Positions 29,643 to 40,560 of a DNA stretch of 60,765 nt are shown in pieces (position 1 is the first letter of the stretch; every line of letters starts with the position of its first letter). Made by a program: the position numbers and the translations under genes. Under the pieces are notes generated by a model. That model did not search any database. It was not told where the DNA came from and saw nothing but the letters and a program-made list of their open reading frames with translations. The stretch comes from a virus. Location: positions 1-60,765 of IMG/VR virus record IMGVR_UViG_3300025890_000027. One strand, given 5' to 3'.

Positions 29643-32096
29643 GTGCCTACGCCTACAAACAGAGTTCCTGTAAGAGTAGCGCGTGGTTACTTCTCTACTC
29701 TAAGTGCTTCCATCTCGGACTTGTATGAGGGGGAGATTGTATACGCTTTAGATCAGCAAGCTCTCTATGCTGTAGAAGCTCAGCAGTTAATCCCTGTAGC
29801 CGGCACCAGTATCACTAGCGTAAATGGTGCTACAGGTAGTGTCCTTCTTGGCATAGAAGAATTAGAGGATACCACTATAAATTCATTGCTTGACGGGGAT
29901 ACGCTCGTTTATTCTAACGGAGAATGGATTAATTCGCCTGCGACGGCTGGAGGCACTGTTCTCAGTATTGATTTAAATGGCAGTGGAGGTATTGAGACTT
30001 CAGGAGGGCCGGTCACCTCAAGTGGGGTAATCGAAGTATCCTTGAGCAGCACTGGCGTTACCGCAGGCGAGTATACTTTTCCTACTTTAACTGTTGACGA
30101 GAAAGGACGCATTACGGCTATCCTCTCTAACGCTGCTCCAGATCAAAGTCTGAATGATCTTAGTGATGTAAACTCTCCTTTGCCAGGTATAGGCGATGGG
30201 TTGATTTGGGATGGAGTTAACTGGGTCAATACTCCAGATGTTGGAGGTGGAGCTGAATCACTAGATGAATTAAGCGACGTAGATGTCACTACTCAACTTC
30301 CCACGGAAGGTCAGGTTCTTCTCTGGGATAACACGCAAGCGACCTGGAAACCAGGAACTGTCGAAATTCCCCCCTCGGCTTCTATTCCTCTCAATGAATT
30401 AGTAGACGTTGAGATCCCTAATCCAACTGATAAGGATTTAATTGGCTACAATTCTGACACCGGATTGTGGTCAAATGGGTCCTTGCAATCCATTCTCTTA
30501 GCAGACCCTTCTGAGCTTGAAAACGGAGACGGGCTAATTTGGGACGAATGGAATAGCTCTTGGTACTCCGGTGTGCCTGGAAGCGCAGGGAAAATTGAAT
30601 ATCAAACGTATACTACCACCCAAGAGCAGTCTCCACTTATTGGTGGTAGCTCCTTACTGATAGACGAACCTGCTTGGGAAGATCTAGGCTTTACTTTGTG
30701 TGAAGAATTTGACAATAGCACGCGTTGGGTTGAGGGAGTTCAACAGTTCGTTTTAGACCTTTCGTCAGTTGGGAGCGCCGATACTTTTGCGTTTCATGAG
30801 GTGGTGCCCTATGGAGGCCAGGTTGCAAATTGGAGACCTCTTTCTGCTGATGTTTTCATTACTATCAAAAGAGAAACTTTTGAAATTTTAGAGGAAAATA
30901 GAACAGTTAACACTACTGATCCTACTCCTACTGGAGATCCCTTTAGTTTCCCCGACGACGCCGACCCAAATATTGCATTTGAATGCAGCATCTTTCCTCA
31001 GGATGCAAAGGATTTGGATATGCTTGTCTATAGAGCAGGCGTAATTCCTTCCTATACAGACGATGTTGGCGAACGATGGACAATCTTCCGGAGAGAATTA
31101 ATACAAAAAAATTATTTCTTTAATAACTGGGCAACTGAACTTTGGATCTCTAGTAAAGGCGCAGTTATTGTTAAACAAGGAAATCCTTCTTGGGAATATT
31201 CATGGGGAGCCAATACTGGTGGTCATGGCACTCTTCATAATTGGTACTTTGATCCAGTGCTTGGACCAAGCAATTACGGCGATGGGACCTGGGCGGACCT
31301 GCCAGTAAGTGGCAGCTACGTTGCCTTTGCTGGGCATCGTCTACTTAACCCAGAAAAAGAAGAGATATCCCTTGAGGATTTGAATGATGTAGATACCTTT
31401 GGAGTGCAGGTCAATCAATCATTGCATTGGTCTGGGACAGAATGGACCCCTAGTTTTATTAGTATCGATGAACTGTCTGATGTTGACACCACTACAAGCC
31501 CACCAGCGACAGGGCAAATGCTTCAATGGGACGGTAACAACTGGGTTCCCATAAATATTCCTATCTCTGGCGCGACTAGCCTTGACGAGCTTTCGGATGT
31601 AAGAACAACTGAGCCAACTCCTCAGGATACTAATGTTTTAGCCTATAACGATACAGAAAACCGATGGTTGCCAGCAAAACCTAGGGCTACCCCTGGAGCT
31701 CCTTTAAGCCTTTCTTCCCCTGGATTGCCGGGAGAGATGCGTTTTAACGATAATTATTTTTACATTTGTATTGGCTTAAACCACTGGAAGCAGGTTGGTC
31801 TTGTTGACCTTACAATTGATCCAAGCATTCAAGAAGTTGCCGATGGTGGTAACTGGGCTGACGGCTCAGGCGGAAGTGTTGACACCACTCTGGATGGAGG
31901 GGACTGGGGAGAAGGAACAACCAATGATGCACAAGGCGCTATTGTTGATGGCGGAATATTTGCTTCGACTATTGATGGCGGCAACTTTACAGATGGAACA
32001 AGTGGTGGGTATAATGTTTCATCTGACGGAGGTAACTTTACGACCGGAGCTCCTGGGGTTGACAGGACTAGTGATGGGGGCGTATTTACGCCATAA
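29643..32096 (+). CDS. Tail fibre protein with shared N-terminal anchor and DGG(N/D)F tail
   Basis: This is an 817-residue protein (GTG 29643). It begins MPTPTNRVPVRVARG and continues DLYEGEIVYALDQQALYAVE, the anchor module also seen at 32174, 34262 and 40590. Seven L-x-DVD...W repeats follow. A ~200-residue beta domain at ~320-570 (WEDLGFTL ... YRAGV) is homologous to one in the 34262 protein. A 'YFYICIGLNHWKQVGL' module precedes the C-terminus, which has six DGG-x-F/W motifs at ~10-20-residue spacing, ending DGGVFTP. Probable receptor-binding protein. Confidence 0.7.
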   Translation: MPTPTNRVPVRVARGYFSTLSASISDLYEGEIVYALDQQALYAVEAQQLIPVAGTSITSVNGATGSVLLGIEELEDTTINSLLDGDTLVYSNGEWINSPATAGGTVLSIDLNGSGGIETSGGPVTSSGVIEVSLSSTGVTAGEYTFPTLTVDEKGRITAILSNAAPDQSLNDLSDVNSPLPGIGDGLIWDGVNWVNTPDVGGGAESLDELSDVDVTTQLPTEGQVLLWDNTQATWKPGTVEIPPSASIPLNELVDVEIPNPTDKDLIGYNSDTGLWSNGSLQSILLADPSELENGDGLIWDEWNSSWYSGVPGSAGKIEYQTYTTTQEQSPLIGGSSLLIDEPAWEDLGFTLCEEFDNSTRWVEGVQQFVLDLSSVGSADTFAFHEVVPYGGQVANWRPLSADVFITIKRETFEILEENRTVNTTDPTPTGDPFSFPDDADPNIAFECSIFPQDAKDLDMLVYRAGVIPSYTDDVGERWTIFRRELIQKNYFFNNWATELWISSKGAVIVKQGNPSWEYSWGANTGGHGTLHNWYFDPVLGPSNYGDGTWADLPVSGSYVAFAGHRLLNPEKEEISLEDLNDVDTFGVQVNQSLHWSGTEWTPSFISIDELSDVDTTTSPPATGQMLQWDGNNWVPINIPISGATSLDELSDVRTTEPTPQDTNVLAYNDTENRWLPAKPRATPGAPLSLSSPGLPGEMRFNDNYFYICIGLNHWKQVGLVDLTIDPSIQEVADGGNWADGSGGSVDTTLDGGDWGEGTTNDAQGAIVDGGIFASTIDGGNFTDGTSGGYNVSSDGGNFTTGAPGVDRTSDGGVFTP

Positions 32097-32173: not shown

Positions 32174-34186
32174 ATGCCAGTTCCAAGTCCCAGAAGCAAG
32201 TTGCTGCCAGCCCGTGGTAATTACTCGGACTTGGAGCAAAACGTCGGCGATCTTCTAGATGGCGAGATTTGCTATGCTATTGACCAAGACCAGTACTATC
32301 AGAAAGAAGGCGCAGGGCTTGTTGCTGTAGGCGCGACCAAGGCGCAAGGAGCTTTGGCTGACTCGGCTTTACAAGATGCCCCTTCTAATGGCTATCAATA
32401 CGCTCGCCAAGACGGCTCTTGGTCAATTGTAACTGGAGGAGGAAGTGGCGGAGGAAGTTCTGCTTATCCGGAAACAACCTTCACTATTGATGCCGATTCC
32501 ACCCCTAACTATTTATTTTCAGGTGCTGGTTTTACGACTGCTACGGCGAATCCCGACTTGGTTTTGATTCGTGGACAAAAGTATTCTTTCGATAATACGA
32601 GTGGTGCTCATCCTTTCCAAATCCAAACATCTGACGGTAGTGCTTATGACGAAGGAGTTATCGACAACGATACCATCGGTCTGGTGCAGTTTACTGTCCC
32701 ATTCGATGCTCCAGCCGAGTTAAGGTATCAGTGTACAGTTCATCCATCCTCGATGGTCGGTGCAATTGCCGTCTTAGATTCTGACTTGTCTTCTTTAGTT
32801 GATGTAGACCTTTCTGTCGCTCCTGCTAATGGCGAAGGACTGATTTACGATTCTACTTCAGGAAAATGGAAGCCGAAAGTTCCTGATCCGATCGCGGAGG
32901 AGACTTTCATTGAAGCTCAGTACATTGCAATCGCTCAGGACTTTGAGGATTCCGGCTCTCATTCAGGTGAGAAGAATGCTGATCTTTGGAATGGATCGGG
33001 AACCGAGCAAGACGGAGGTGAGATGCCGGTATCAGGTCCTGCCACTCAACCACCAGGCATGCACGGTACTAAATATATAGATTATACAGAATTTACGAAC
33101 TACAGTTTCCCGGGTACCAATGATGAAGGTATGCAGGGGCCCTGGGTAGGCATTGGCAACCAAGCCGTGTACATCGAGTTTTGGTTTCGGCATGACCCCA
33201 TCACGTCTTCCACACCGGTTGGTGATCAATTCGTATTTGGACAAGGTTCAGCTTCTCAAGCCGGTGACATCAACAATGGCCATGGAGGGCTTGTTATTAA
33301 GCACATCATAGACGTGGATCTTTCTACCACGACGGCACTTGACCCTACATTTAATCCTGACACAACGTATAGCGGGTTTGAGCCTGAATTTGGCTATATC
33401 TACACTAACACAAGTGCTCTTATCCTCCAAGACGGATTAGATAGTGATGGCTATTTCCTTGTTGGAACAAAGGAAATGAATATTGCGGATGGTGTCTGGC
33501 ATCATGTTGTCTTCATGCAAGAACCCACCGCGGACCCTCAGCCAGGGGGTGCGGCAAGTGGAGTATATTCCTGCTTTATTGACGGAAAACTTCGAGACAG
33601 GTGGGATGCTAATCAAAATCCTGGCACCACCCCTGTTGATACCAACGCTGGGGATTGGGACACTTATTATTTTGGCTGCCTGAAGGATGGAACAGGCCAC
33701 ATGAGGGCCGCTATTGATAACTTTGTCGTTTACGGCACAACAGAAAAGTTTCCCTATCCTGCAGGAGTCGATTCTGTAGAGGTTTACAAGGGGCCAGTAA
33801 ATGTAGATCGTACATTCAAGATTCAGACAAAAGGTTCTCCTTCATCGTCCTTGAGTGATTTCTCTTCATTACAACCAAAAATAGGCGAAGCCCCTGTATT
33901 TGATCAGTTTGGCAGCTACACACCTACTCCCGTACTTTCCATTCACGCTGTGTCTAATACAGCAAATGCCGGCGAAGGAACTAGCGGTACGCCATTCCCT
34001 GCAGATCGCGAAGATCTCATTTATTCGGATACAGAAGACGGTCGATACAGGTACCCGCTAGCTGTAGGCACCTGCTTGATTGATGCCGCAAACAACACCT
34101 TATTTATCTGGTCAGGTCCTTACGACGAAGCGGGATACAGCGCCACTACTGGAGGATGGAAAAAGATTGCTCTATTGGATATTTAA
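32174..34186 (+). CDS. Tail fibre with cupredoxin-like and LamG-like domains
   Basis: This is a 670-residue protein with an anchor module at residues 1-55 (MPVPSPR, LLDGEICYAIDQDQYY). Residues ~100-205 form a cupredoxin-like domain with a complete type 1 copper ligand set: H146 (GAHPFQI), C187, H190 and M194 (YQCTVHPSSM). One DVD...W repeat (~205-235) follows, then a LamG-like domain (~270-555; VYIEFWFRHD, WHHVVFMQE, SCFIDGKLRD). The end is a 'NTLFIW...WKKIAL' module as in other phage fibres. Copper binding is inferred from ligand spacing, C-x2-H-x3-M. Whether the site is loaded is unknown. Confidence 0.75.
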   Translation: MPVPSPRSKLLPARGNYSDLEQNVGDLLDGEICYAIDQDQYYQKEGAGLVAVGATKAQGALADSALQDAPSNGYQYARQDGSWSIVTGGGSGGGSSAYPETTFTIDADSTPNYLFSGAGFTTATANPDLVLIRGQKYSFDNTSGAHPFQIQTSDGSAYDEGVIDNDTIGLVQFTVPFDAPAELRYQCTVHPSSMVGAIAVLDSDLSSLVDVDLSVAPANGEGLIYDSTSGKWKPKVPDPIAEETFIEAQYIAIAQDFEDSGSHSGEKNADLWNGSGTEQDGGEMPVSGPATQPPGMHGTKYIDYTEFTNYSFPGTNDEGMQGPWVGIGNQAVYIEFWFRHDPITSSTPVGDQFVFGQGSASQAGDINNGHGGLVIKHIIDVDLSTTTALDPTFNPDTTYSGFEPEFGYIYTNTSALILQDGLDSDGYFLVGTKEMNIADGVWHHVVFMQEPTADPQPGGAASGVYSCFIDGKLRDRWDANQNPGTTPVDTNAGDWDTYYFGCLKDGTGHMRAAIDNFVVYGTTEKFPYPAGVDSVEVYKGPVNVDRTFKIQTKGSPSSSLSDFSSLQPKIGEAPVFDQFGSYTPTPVLSIHAVSNTANAGEGTSGTPFPADREDLIYSDTEDGRYRYPLAVGTCLIDAANNTLFIWSGPYDEAGYSATTGGWKKIALLDI

Positions 34187-34197
34187 CTAGAGTTATT

Positions 34198-34213
34198 AGC
34201 CCCTACTGGGGCT
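34198..34213. other. Intergenic hairpin AGCCCC-TACT-GGGGCT
   Basis: A perfect 6-bp stem with a 4-base loop lies between two fibre genes. It is followed by TAAAAATTG rather than a T tract, so it is at best a weak terminator or an RNA processing or stability element. Confidence 0.4.
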
Positions 34214-34261
34214 TAAAAATTGAGTGGGTATCCTAAGCCAGATTTTGCAAGCGCTAGAAAA

Positions 34262-35938
34262 ATGCCAGCTCCTTCGAATCGGATTCCAGTTAGACCGGCT
34301 CGCGGAAGTCGCACAGTTCTCACTGACTCTTTAGACAGTATTCAGGAAGGTGAAATTGTATATGCTCGAGACGAGGACTCGCTATTTATAAAAGAAAACG
34401 GACAGTTGGTTAACGTCGCCATAGGAATAGGCCTTGACGCTCAAAAAATCAGCGCAGAAATCACTTGGACTATCGCAACTTCCGCAGCTGAAGATGCCTA
34501 TCTTTTTAGTGGTCAGGGCTTTGCTTCTCAGATAGAAAATCCTACTATATATGTAATTAGAGGGCAGAAGTATGCCTTTGATCATCAGCTCGGCACAGAT
34601 CCCTTTCAGATTACTACACCAGATGGAACGCCTTATACCGTAGGTCAAACAAATACTCCAGCTGACGGATCAATCCTAAGATGGGAGGTCTCAATGCAAG
34701 CCCCCAAAATCCTGAGATACGTCTCAACAGAGGATAGCAATAAGAGTGGAGAAATTATCGCTATTTCTGATAGCTTTTCTTTAGGTCTTGAAGATCTCAC
34801 AAATGTAGGCGACGCCGTTCCCGCGGACGGGCAAGTTATGATCTACAGTTCGTCTCAAGGGTTATGGCAGGCTGCTGATTTGGCCACTGGTGGTGTCACT
34901 TCCTTGAATGGATTAACGGATGTAGACACTTCATCGGCACTTGAAAGTGATGTATTGAAATTTAACGGAACATATTGGGAAGCTTTGCCGGAAGCTACGG
35001 ATGTAGGGACCCCAGGCCGTAAAGTCACAATGAGTATAGACAGCACTCGTCGTGGACAGATGTTGGGGACCGAATTTATTTTGGACTCGACAGCCGACTG
35101 GGAAGGTATGGGCTTTACGGTTCTTTCTACTGACAACAATGAAACAGACTCTTGGGTCTACTTCCAGTTTGACAGCTTCGATTTAAATAAGTGGGTTCCT
35201 CTGGGAAGAAATGACTCAATTCCGTATAACAGTGATGGAGAGGATAGTCCAACATTCGCATTTGACGGAAGTGGCCGTCTTGTTTCTTGGACCAACTCGC
35301 CATTCGACGTCAGCCCCATCGCATCTACAAAAAATTTATCAGCTCCCCAGAACTGTGCGTTCTGCTTTACGGCTTTCCTTGAATCATCCAATTGCACTGT
35401 CTACAGAGCTGGGTACAAAGGAGCCTTGGAGTACGAAGGCGCCACTTGGAGTGTCTTGCGTGTTGAATATGCTAAATTTGACACTTTACTAGCAGTAGAA
35501 TATTGGCTGGGCCACGACGGAGACGTCAAAATGTTGTATGGTCGGCCTGATGGAAGTTTTAATCTAAATGTTGATACTAACGGCAACGGCTTTACTTTTG
35601 GTGGTCGAACTAACGACCCAACACTAGGAAATGCTAATTATAATCTTCCTGGTTTGACTCAAGATGCAGGCTATGGAATTGAGTTATGGTATAACGGTAG
35701 TGGCTACAACATTGACGACCTATCCAACGTAAGTCATTCTGGTGATTCCCCTCCTACTGATAACTTTCCTTTAGTGTGGTCCAACGGGTCTTGGGGCCCA
35801 GGAAGCATCGTCAGAGAAGGCTCTCAGGCGTCTACTTCCGGGGGAGAAGTAGGCATTTTTGCTGTTGATTCAGTCTATCTTTACGTCTGTGTCGGAAAGA
35901 ATGACTGGAAAAGAATAGCATTGGAAACCTTCGTCTGA
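34262..35938 (+). CDS. Tail fibre with degenerate cupredoxin-like domain
   Basis: From ATG 34262 this is a 558-residue protein beginning MPAPSNRIPVRPARG, aligning with the starts of its paralogues; TTG 34220 would add 14 residues. After the anchor module (IQEGEIVYARDEDSLF) comes a domain clearly related to the cupredoxin-like one at 32174 (RGQKYAFD, DPFQITTPDG). Here the copper ligands are replaced: His by Asp, and the CTVH segment by STED. Three DVD...W repeats, the ~200-residue beta domain shared with the 29643 protein (VYRAG), and a YLYVCVGKNDWKRIAL module follow. Confidence 0.7.
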   Translation: MPAPSNRIPVRPARGSRTVLTDSLDSIQEGEIVYARDEDSLFIKENGQLVNVAIGIGLDAQKISAEITWTIATSAAEDAYLFSGQGFASQIENPTIYVIRGQKYAFDHQLGTDPFQITTPDGTPYTVGQTNTPADGSILRWEVSMQAPKILRYVSTEDSNKSGEIIAISDSFSLGLEDLTNVGDAVPADGQVMIYSSSQGLWQAADLATGGVTSLNGLTDVDTSSALESDVLKFNGTYWEALPEATDVGTPGRKVTMSIDSTRRGQMLGTEFILDSTADWEGMGFTVLSTDNNETDSWVYFQFDSFDLNKWVPLGRNDSIPYNSDGEDSPTFAFDGSGRLVSWTNSPFDVSPIASTKNLSAPQNCAFCFTAFLESSNCTVYRAGYKGALEYEGATWSVLRVEYAKFDTLLAVEYWLGHDGDVKMLYGRPDGSFNLNVDTNGNGFTFGGRTNDPTLGNANYNLPGLTQDAGYGIELWYNGSGYNIDDLSNVSHSGDSPPTDNFPLVWSNGSWGPGSIVREGSQASTSGGEVGIFAVDSVYLYVCVGKNDWKRIALETFV

Positions 35939-35952
35939 TTCAAGCAAAAAAA

Positions 35953-36339
35953 ATGGCCAACTCTTCTGAAGAATCATATGCGGAGCAATTCCGCTCATCA
36001 GGCAAATTGCCAAAAGGGCCAGTTTCACCTTGGCCTCGTGGTCGCGAAATTCGAACTTTAAACTCTTACGTTAACAAGGCCGATGTGAGAAACGAGAACG
36101 AAATCAAGCCAACTCTTAAGGAAATGGCTGCAGGCATGCTGAGAACAGGAGGGCAGGCTCTTCATCATGGAAAATGTTCTACAGAAGTCAGGACCGAGAG
36201 GATGGAAACGTGTATGAGTTGCGAACATTTTCTTCCTGCCGAACAAAGATGCAGTCTATGTGGTTGCTATATGAAGGCTAAGACCTGGGTCGGCGGCGAC
36301 CCTAAAAGATTGTGCCCAGCTAAAAAGTGGCTTAGGTAA
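35953..36339 (+). CDS. Small zinc-ribbon protein (DUF6171-like)
   Basis: This is a 128-residue protein. The C-terminal ~50 residues have an ordered cysteine set (ETCMSCEHF, RCSLCGCYM, RLCPAKKW), matching R-x3-C-x2-C ... C-x2-C-x-C ... CP-x2-KW as in small phage zinc-binding proteins. The N-terminus is basic and polar (SPWPRGREIRTL). It lies 14 bases after a fibre gene and before the scaffold gene. It may assist virion assembly or bind nucleic acid. Function not known. Confidence 0.65.
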   Translation: MANSSEESYAEQFRSSGKLPKGPVSPWPRGREIRTLNSYVNKADVRNENEIKPTLKEMAAGMLRTGGQALHHGKCSTEVRTERMETCMSCEHFLPAEQRCSLCGCYMKAKTWVGGDPKRLCPAKKWLR

Positions 36340-39330: not shown

Positions 39331-40560
39331 ATGATCCTATCATCCACTGACATTGTACGCATTCTAAAGGGAAGCGCGATTATCAGTGGATCTGCGCGGA
39401 TCACTATAGTCGAGAAAAAACCTATTTTCAGTGGGGCAGAAGGGCTTTTTCTTTATGTGGAAGAGTTCCCCGCCTTAGAAGAGTTTGAAGCAACCTGGAA
39501 GATTTGGATAGAATCAGACGGAAGCGAGTTAGATGATTTAGTTATCAAAGAGATGGGAGAGTTGCTCCCTAACTTTAGGGTAAAGCCAGGACTTATACTA
39601 GAGGCTTGCGTAACCGATTTTAGATCTAATGAGACTGTTGCTAGGCCATTGCCTTCGACCGATCTCGTCTCGATACCTGAATCAGTGTGGACTGAAAAAT
39701 CTGAGCAGCGTTTTGCTGAATTGGCCCAAGACATTCAAGACAGGATGTTGCTCGTCAATTCAGGTAGGGCTGGATCCAACGGAGCTGATGGTAAGGATGG
39801 AGTGCCGGGTCCCCCCGGGGCTGCTGGCCGTGATGGCAAGGATCTACTTGCCAGTAATGCCGTTCTCGATAATCTCAAAGATGTTAAGATTGCGGACAGA
39901 ATACCGCTCAAGAAAAGCCAAGTACTTACATACGACGGTTCTCAATGGACTAACTTATATATCCCTCAATTAACCTCTTCCTCCGGAGGTGGCGGGTCTT
40001 CTACCGTAGTCACTGGTGGGAGCGGCACAACGATTTCTTGGATCGAGCACGGCGAGACAGGAGAACCTCATGATCGCAAATTCCATGTAAACAATACCGA
40101 CATAGCGCTGGTCACTCAGTTTCATGTTAGCAAAGCGAATGAAGCTGGAAATGACGTCGAATTACTCCTCGAAGCGATACTACCTATAAGTGGGCAAATT
40201 TACTTAACGCAAGCTAGTGATTCCTCTCAGGCCCATTTATTCTCAATTACTAGCTATTCTGAGACCACCGATGGTTTTCTTCTCGTTGTCGCTCATGTCG
40301 AAACTCCCGGGCCTGAAACGCAGTTAGCAGAAAATCAAGCGTATAACTTTCTTTTTCTTTCCTCTTCAAGCGTATCAGGAGGTATCCCCGAAGCCCCTCA
40401 AGACGGTGGTTATTATGTTCGGAGAAATGGGGCATGGGTTAATCTTAGTGTCGCGCTGGGCGCATTTGACAACCGCGACTTCGATGGAGGTGACCTGGCC
40501 GCCGGTACATCTGACTCGATTGATAATGCACCATTGGATGGCGGAAACTTTACGACCTAA
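39331..40560 (+). CDS. Tail fibre protein with short collagen-like segment
   Basis: This is a 409-residue protein. An N-terminal ~120-residue beta domain (FLYVEEFPALEEFEATWKIW) is followed by a stretch of eight G-x-y triplets at ~150-173 (GADGKDGVPGPPGAAGRDGK), a collagen-like triple-helix segment used in many fibres. One DVK...W repeat, a Gly/Ser linker and a jelly-roll-like domain (~225-370) come next. The C-terminus carries DGGD and ends DGGNFTT, the motif of other fibres here. Probably trimeric. Confidence 0.7.
   Translation: MILSSTDIVRILKGSAIISGSARITIVEKKPIFSGAEGLFLYVEEFPALEEFEATWKIWIESDGSELDDLVIKEMGELLPNFRVKPGLILEACVTDFRSNETVARPLPSTDLVSIPESVWTEKSEQRFAELAQDIQDRMLLVNSGRAGSNGADGKDGVPGPPGAAGRDGKDLLASNAVLDNLKDVKIADRIPLKKSQVLTYDGSQWTNLYIPQLTSSSGGGGSSTVVTGGSGTTISWIEHGETGEPHDRKFHVNNTDIALVTQFHVSKANEAGNDVELLLEAILPISGQIYLTQASDSSQAHLFSITSYSETTDGFLLVVAHVETPGPETQLAENQAYNFLFLSSSSVSGGIPEAPQDGGYYVRRNGAWVNLSVALGAFDNRDFDGGDLAAGTSDSIDNAPLDGGNFTT

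Follow-up and report, generated by a model that had tools for sequence, protein, structure and literature searches.

The copper proteins amicyanin, plastocyanin and pseudoazurin (PF00127) carry their metal ligands in the order His ... Cys-x2-His-xn-Met, and the domain described here, found in two neighbouring tail fibres of a cyanophage, has the same predicted fold and, in one of its two copies, the same ligand order. Metal ions have been described from phage tail fibres in the form of HxH iron sites, which are experimental for T4 and proposed for marine phages (PMC11705849). In gp9 of cyanomyoviruses (phrog_677), a protein that connects the baseplate to the fibres, the C-terminal part was recognized as the same domain as that of the two fibres (E 4e-28 for the ligand-bearing and 1e-20 for the ligand-free copy), and the ligands are kept in the gp9 proteins sampled; the annotations of gp9 make no mention of a cupredoxin. 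The profile match is confined to this C-terminal domain (positions 302-411 and 294-407 of the 412 in the profile), and neither fibre protein showed homology to the N-terminal part of phrog_677.

The stretch of DNA that was analysed (the window, 60,765 nucleotides of IMG/VR record IMGVR_UViG_3300025890_000027) comes from a cyanosiphovirus, its major capsid protein sharing 80-83% identity with that of S-CBS2 and of S-CRES1-3, and a psbA gene (G000:C70:60607-61479) overlaps the window's end. The assembly containing the window was rejected as the phage host, and the contig is probably misbinned: the assembly gave no photosystem I match, and the one psbA it has is that of the phage contig. The two fibre genes follow each other on the plus strand and encode proteins of 670 aa (32174..34186) and 558 aa (34262..35938; a longer ORF in this frame starts from a TTG at 34220), which were aligned by BLASTP with 35% identity over 237 aa (E 2e-28). 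The homologous domain, of about 110 residues, spans residues 97-205 of the first fibre (32462..32788) and 62-172 of the second (34445..34777), and the two copies are 37% identical. The first copy bears the four predicted copper ligands that the earlier note had read as a type-1 set with C-x2-H-x3-M spacing, and the ORF translation places them just as the note had: H146 in AHPFQ (32609..32611), and C187 (32732..32734), H190 (32741..32743) and the axial M194 (32753..32755) in YQCTVHPSSM. In the second copy, which has RGQKYAFD and DPFQIT and which had also been singled out as a homologue with altered ligands, the aligned residues are D113 (34598..34600) and S155, D158 and K161 (34724..34744). The order and strand positions of a type-1 site (His, Cys, His, axial Met) are thus those of the first domain and not of the second.

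Both proteins start with a module of about 50 residues (residues 1-53 of the first fibre, 32174..32332), which is common to four fibre-like proteins of the window, those at 29643, 32174, 34262 and 40590, and which probably serves all of them as a common attachment to the virion. Further along the first fibre, residues 428-521 (33455..33736) form a weak ConA/laminin-G-like region that falls below the cut-off in the window protein (PF13385, E 0.008), whereas the corresponding region of a related fibre (L152, see below) lies above it. Elsewhere in the neighbourhood, the fibre-like proteins at 29643-32096 and 39331-40560 end in C-termini with repeated DGG-x-[FWY] motifs, and a protein of 128 aa whose C-terminus is Cys-rich and zinc-ribbon-like is encoded at 35953-36339; a counterpart of the latter stands beside the fibre pair in L152 as well.

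The fold was followed by structure prediction, which gave confident models for the ligand-bearing domain (AlphaFold pLDDT 94.1, pTM 0.86) and for the ligand-free domain (pLDDT 89.3, with an input alignment that, as for the first copy, consisted mainly of ligand-bearing homologues). When the ligand-bearing model was compared with the PDB using Foldseek, the best E was 1.5e-5 and the 50 matches listed were all blue-copper, multicopper or related proteins, among them nitrite reductase, plastocyanin, pseudoazurin, rusticyanin and laccase; they also include clotting factors, which contain cupredoxin-type A domains. The ligand-free model gave a best E of 1.4e-5 and 50 matches listed of the same cupredoxin-type kinds, and since a copy devoid of the ligands yields a like list, the fold match is independent of the motif in the query sequence. 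Both predicted models match the solved cupredoxins, Greek-key beta-sandwiches of about eight strands, with TM-scores that are moderate for the ligand-bearing model (0.41-0.58 by query length among the matches listed). In that model H146 lies between strands 4 and 5, C187 ends strand 7, and H190 and M194 occupy the following loop, positions like those in the known cupredoxins; in the structure prediction that the earlier note had proposed as a check for this protein, the order and strand positions of the four residues fit a copper site. The domain also recurs in BFVD models of cyanophage proteins, which were made separately (best query TM-scores about 0.85-0.91), and the BFVD matches of similar fold included “beta-sandwich proteins” of giant viruses and, from Fadolivirus, a “blue type 1 copper protein”. 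A cupredoxin-like fold in both copies, as had been proposed, is supported by these models.

The sequence relationship is more distant. The whole fibre gave no useful match to PDB sequences with phmmer, and the relation became visible only by profile: 32 of the 35 PDB sequences matched by the domain profile are of the cupredoxin type, with amicyanin at the top (E 0.002), and HHalign comparisons with sets of pseudoazurin-type and related copper proteins reached probabilities of 91-95%. When the four ligand columns were masked, the sequence similarity to cupredoxins was nearly gone (HHalign probability about 1%), so that the argument from sequence depends on the ligands, and the other support for the relationship is the predicted structure. 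That loss would be expected if an unrelated beta-sandwich resembled a copper protein by chance, an explanation we regard as barely credible, because cupredoxin-type proteins run throughout the 50 matches listed in both fold searches and because the ligands are conserved across hundreds of domains. Against PF00127 (Copper-bind) the window domain scored 14.4 bits, under the cut-off of 21.2, and single sequences falling below this threshold may be the reason that the domain has gone unnamed.

Whether the four residues vary in homologues was a further check that had been proposed, and they do not vary freely. In 159 unique homologous domains the H, C, H and M columns are each 98.7% conserved and, together with one Tyr, are the top columns, in a set partly biased by a scan pattern that included the Cys-His motif. 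A ligand-blind sample was recruited solely by the 41 residues that precede the first ligand, and all 73 unique complete domains recruited in this way keep H/C/H/M, three further domains being truncated by the end of their locus; the only exceptions in this sample, none of them a recruited domain, are three degenerate extra copies in two contigs. In a set of 25 homologues assembled by similarity over the whole domain, the four ligands are kept in all but S-CAM1. Taken over all complete domains collected (n = 224), 215 are HCHM, two are HCHQ and seven have lost three or four ligands: DSDK (window), DSNN (L152), DSTI and ESSA (both L199), HSSV (L267), QSNY (L268) and RCYY (L269). Six of these seven have Ser at the Cys position, and the losses are judged to represent three or four separate lineages; as the 224 domains are partly related by descent, Fisher values for the ligand pattern are indicative only. 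The two HCHQ domains, in which Gln stands in for the axial Met, are in IMG/VR ORFs (residues 966-1070 in L270 and 1096-1198 in L271), and a Gln-coordinated type-1 copper is known from TsNirK (PMC6400189). The usual spacing of the family is C-x2-H-x2-M (222 of 227), and the C-x2-H-x3-M of the window protein is one of three such cases.

A shared metal site would be expected to show such an all-or-none pattern, and a copper site in the first fibre's domain is likely, judging from the conservation of the ligands and the predicted fold. An explanation that would retain the fold but not the metal's significance holds that the conserved residues bind another metal, or copper incidentally, and are kept for instance for the stability of a metal-free fold. 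The metal is indeed a prediction from sequence, and the ligand-free copy is predicted to fold, so that the fold itself would not need the ligands; joint loss of the ligands and a Met-to-Gln variant are, however, expected of a type-1 site and not of unrelated stability residues, and the type-1 likeness spans both ligand order and spacing, for which reasons we consider this explanation unlikely.

The history of the two copies could be followed with the help of a second genome. In L152, which belongs to a 39-kb IMG/VR contig, the two fibre genes recur in unchanged order, and the three large genes that come next in the window, the one for the major capsid protein among them, have counterparts downstream of the pair. 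The first fibre of L152 reads HPF ... YACTVHSGM; in the second, Asp replaces the first His and Ser the Cys. Between the window and L152 the ligand-free copies are 55% identical and the ligand-bearing copies 51%, as against 30-37% across the two kinds. A tree likewise placed the ligand-bearing copies of the window phage and L152 together (97/96), and the ligand-free copies together (100/99). As both the tree and the identities join like with like, the pair is older than the split between the window phage and L152. The two groups do not join each other in the tree, which has few columns and is not decisive on this point. It had been suggested that one copy arose from the other by duplication followed by the loss or gain of metal binding; a simple duplication within the same genome finds no support in the tree and is uncertain, and of the two directions loss rather than gain is the likely one for the second copy, since the ligands are near-universal in the family. 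The ligand-free copy changes no faster than its neighbour (pN 0.33 vs 0.36 between the window and L152), and constraint on it can be read from pN only, the synonymous sites being saturated and dN/dS unusable; the ligand-free form has apparently been retained as an intact fold. When further close relatives of this copy were searched for, only L150, L151 and L152 were found. In L001/L151 the second fibre is in two pieces, beside a run of unknown bases.

The place of the domain in the virion proteins bears on its role. In the window phage it follows the N-terminal anchor module, it is near the N-terminus in the fibres of P-SSM2 and of podoviruses, and it is at the C-terminus of gp9 in cyanomyoviruses. 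This repeated position at the fibre base points to a joint or knuckle rather than to a receptor-binding tip. The earlier note had placed the copper site at the tip of the phage, where it might bind a host surface group, and this placement was not borne out. A role in adsorption, in which the copper site binds such a group or does redox chemistry at the cell surface, would suit a protein that is a fibre, and cupredoxins usually dock their partners near a copper-binding His. Nevertheless, the domain sits beside the N-terminal module and at the gp9 connector, the lectin-like region further along the first fibre would be the better receptor binder, and the ligand or redox partner is purely hypothetical, all of which makes this role improbable. 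Carriage of copper for uptake mimicry appears less probable still, and indeed remote: a buried type-1 site holds copper tightly, no copper receptor provides a link, and the fibre-base position fits poorly. It would be the counterpart of the Trojan-horse idea for iron in phage fibres, which draws on the iron reported in the T4 fibre and on the HxH iron motifs proposed for marine phage fibres (PMC11705849).

The domain at residues 97-205 of the first fibre is thus, on balance, probably a cupredoxin module whose type-1 copper site is intact and acts as a structural staple by the fibre anchor; here the metal, its identity as copper, its role and the anchor function of the N-terminal module are what we infer. 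The copper would pin the loop of the first His to the Cys-His-Met loop, a built-in staple that would give a rigid, compact knuckle beside the N-terminal anchor, at the joint of fibre and baseplate, and its role would be structural and not redox. The second fibre would provide the same knuckle in metal-free form; it is probably a partner subunit from the same region of the tail and may sit at a corresponding place where no staple is required. Bacterial cytoplasm contains little free copper, and loading of such a site would thus have to be chaperoned or to take place after lysis.

The domain is carried by T4-like cyanophages, by podoviruses (P-SCSP2, P-GSP1) and by the cyanosiphovirus of the window. 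For scanning the collections, a profile built from 16 cyanophage domains proved too diverse and narrower sets were used instead; in IMG/VR at least 564 relatives were found, and among bacterial and archaeal genomes the scan gave 38 loci, of which some encode predicted exported proteins, from Flavobacteriia and other groups, and some resemble phage contigs binned with bacteria. In the close relatives S-CBS2 and S-CRES2 no copy was found in the 26-28 kb around the structural genes, and the module therefore comes and goes. Tandem cupredoxin-like domains, some of them degenerate, occur in long proteins of 1470-2152 aa from marine viral IMG/VR records (L269, L270, L272, L281). The degenerate tandem copies of L199, used as a query, had no match among phage records and retrieved more degenerate copies in IMG/VR. 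Several Flavobacteriia loci (L116, L119, L120, L146 and others) encode predicted lipoproteins in which CHRD or Lipoprotein_15 repeats are followed by a C-terminal domain of the family. The family is a large one of marine phage virion proteins, and the libraries searched give it no separate name.

Many marine phage virions may on this reading carry copper, in a module that occurs in hundreds of marine phages. The wider proposal, to which we give slightly less than an even chance, is that blue-copper sites belong to the standard construction of marine phage tails, with copper-stapled joints in every virion of most T4-like cyanophages and of many other marine phages, and with some lineages having made single copies metal-free by joint loss of the ligands while the fold was kept. 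Should copper be bound, it would be present in the tails of a large fraction of marine cyanophage particles, and the family, whose annotations go no further than fibre or baseplate connector, would prove to be one of metalloproteins accessible to standard spectroscopy. Copper would then join a discussion of phage-tail metals that has hitherto been about iron, and the stabilisation of fibre joints would gain a handle, with natural pairs with and without the site to probe the metal's role.

The fold and the ligand set are already known from the cupredoxins. In the open-access papers searched, no published description of the phage domain was found, which does not prove that none exists, and the same papers gave no earlier account of a widespread virion module, of HPF combined with an amicyanin-length loop, or of a conserved pair with and without the ligands. 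Compared with amicyanin, the usual C-x2-H-x2-M loop of the family has the length of the Cys92/His95/Met98 loop (numbering of PMC12723479), and the window copy has one residue more; the first His is followed as HPF in the phage domain and as HN in amicyanin. Unlike amicyanin, plastocyanin and pseudoazurin, which are soluble electron carriers, the phage domain is built into virion proteins. The multicopper oxidases (laccases) and copper nitrite reductases are the best or frequent Foldseek matches among those listed, and the His-Pro at the first type-1 ligand recalls the HP-x-H-x-H motif of laccases; the phage domain differs in having neither visible type-2 or type-3 ligand motifs nor an oxidase architecture. 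The exported domains of Flavobacteriia, Methylotenera and Bdellovibrionales belong to the same family and have the same ligands, but they are C-terminal in predicted lipoproteins, several of them after CHRD or Lipoprotein_15 repeats, and are not phage fibres. In contrast to gp9, the window proteins are cyanosiphovirus fibres with another N-terminal module, and one of them is ligand-free. With the gp37-type sites of T4 the likeness is that of a metal ion in a phage tail fibre; those sites are of iron, formed by HxH in a trimeric needle with octahedral coordination, and are unrelated in fold and site to the phage cupredoxin-like domain (PMC11705849).
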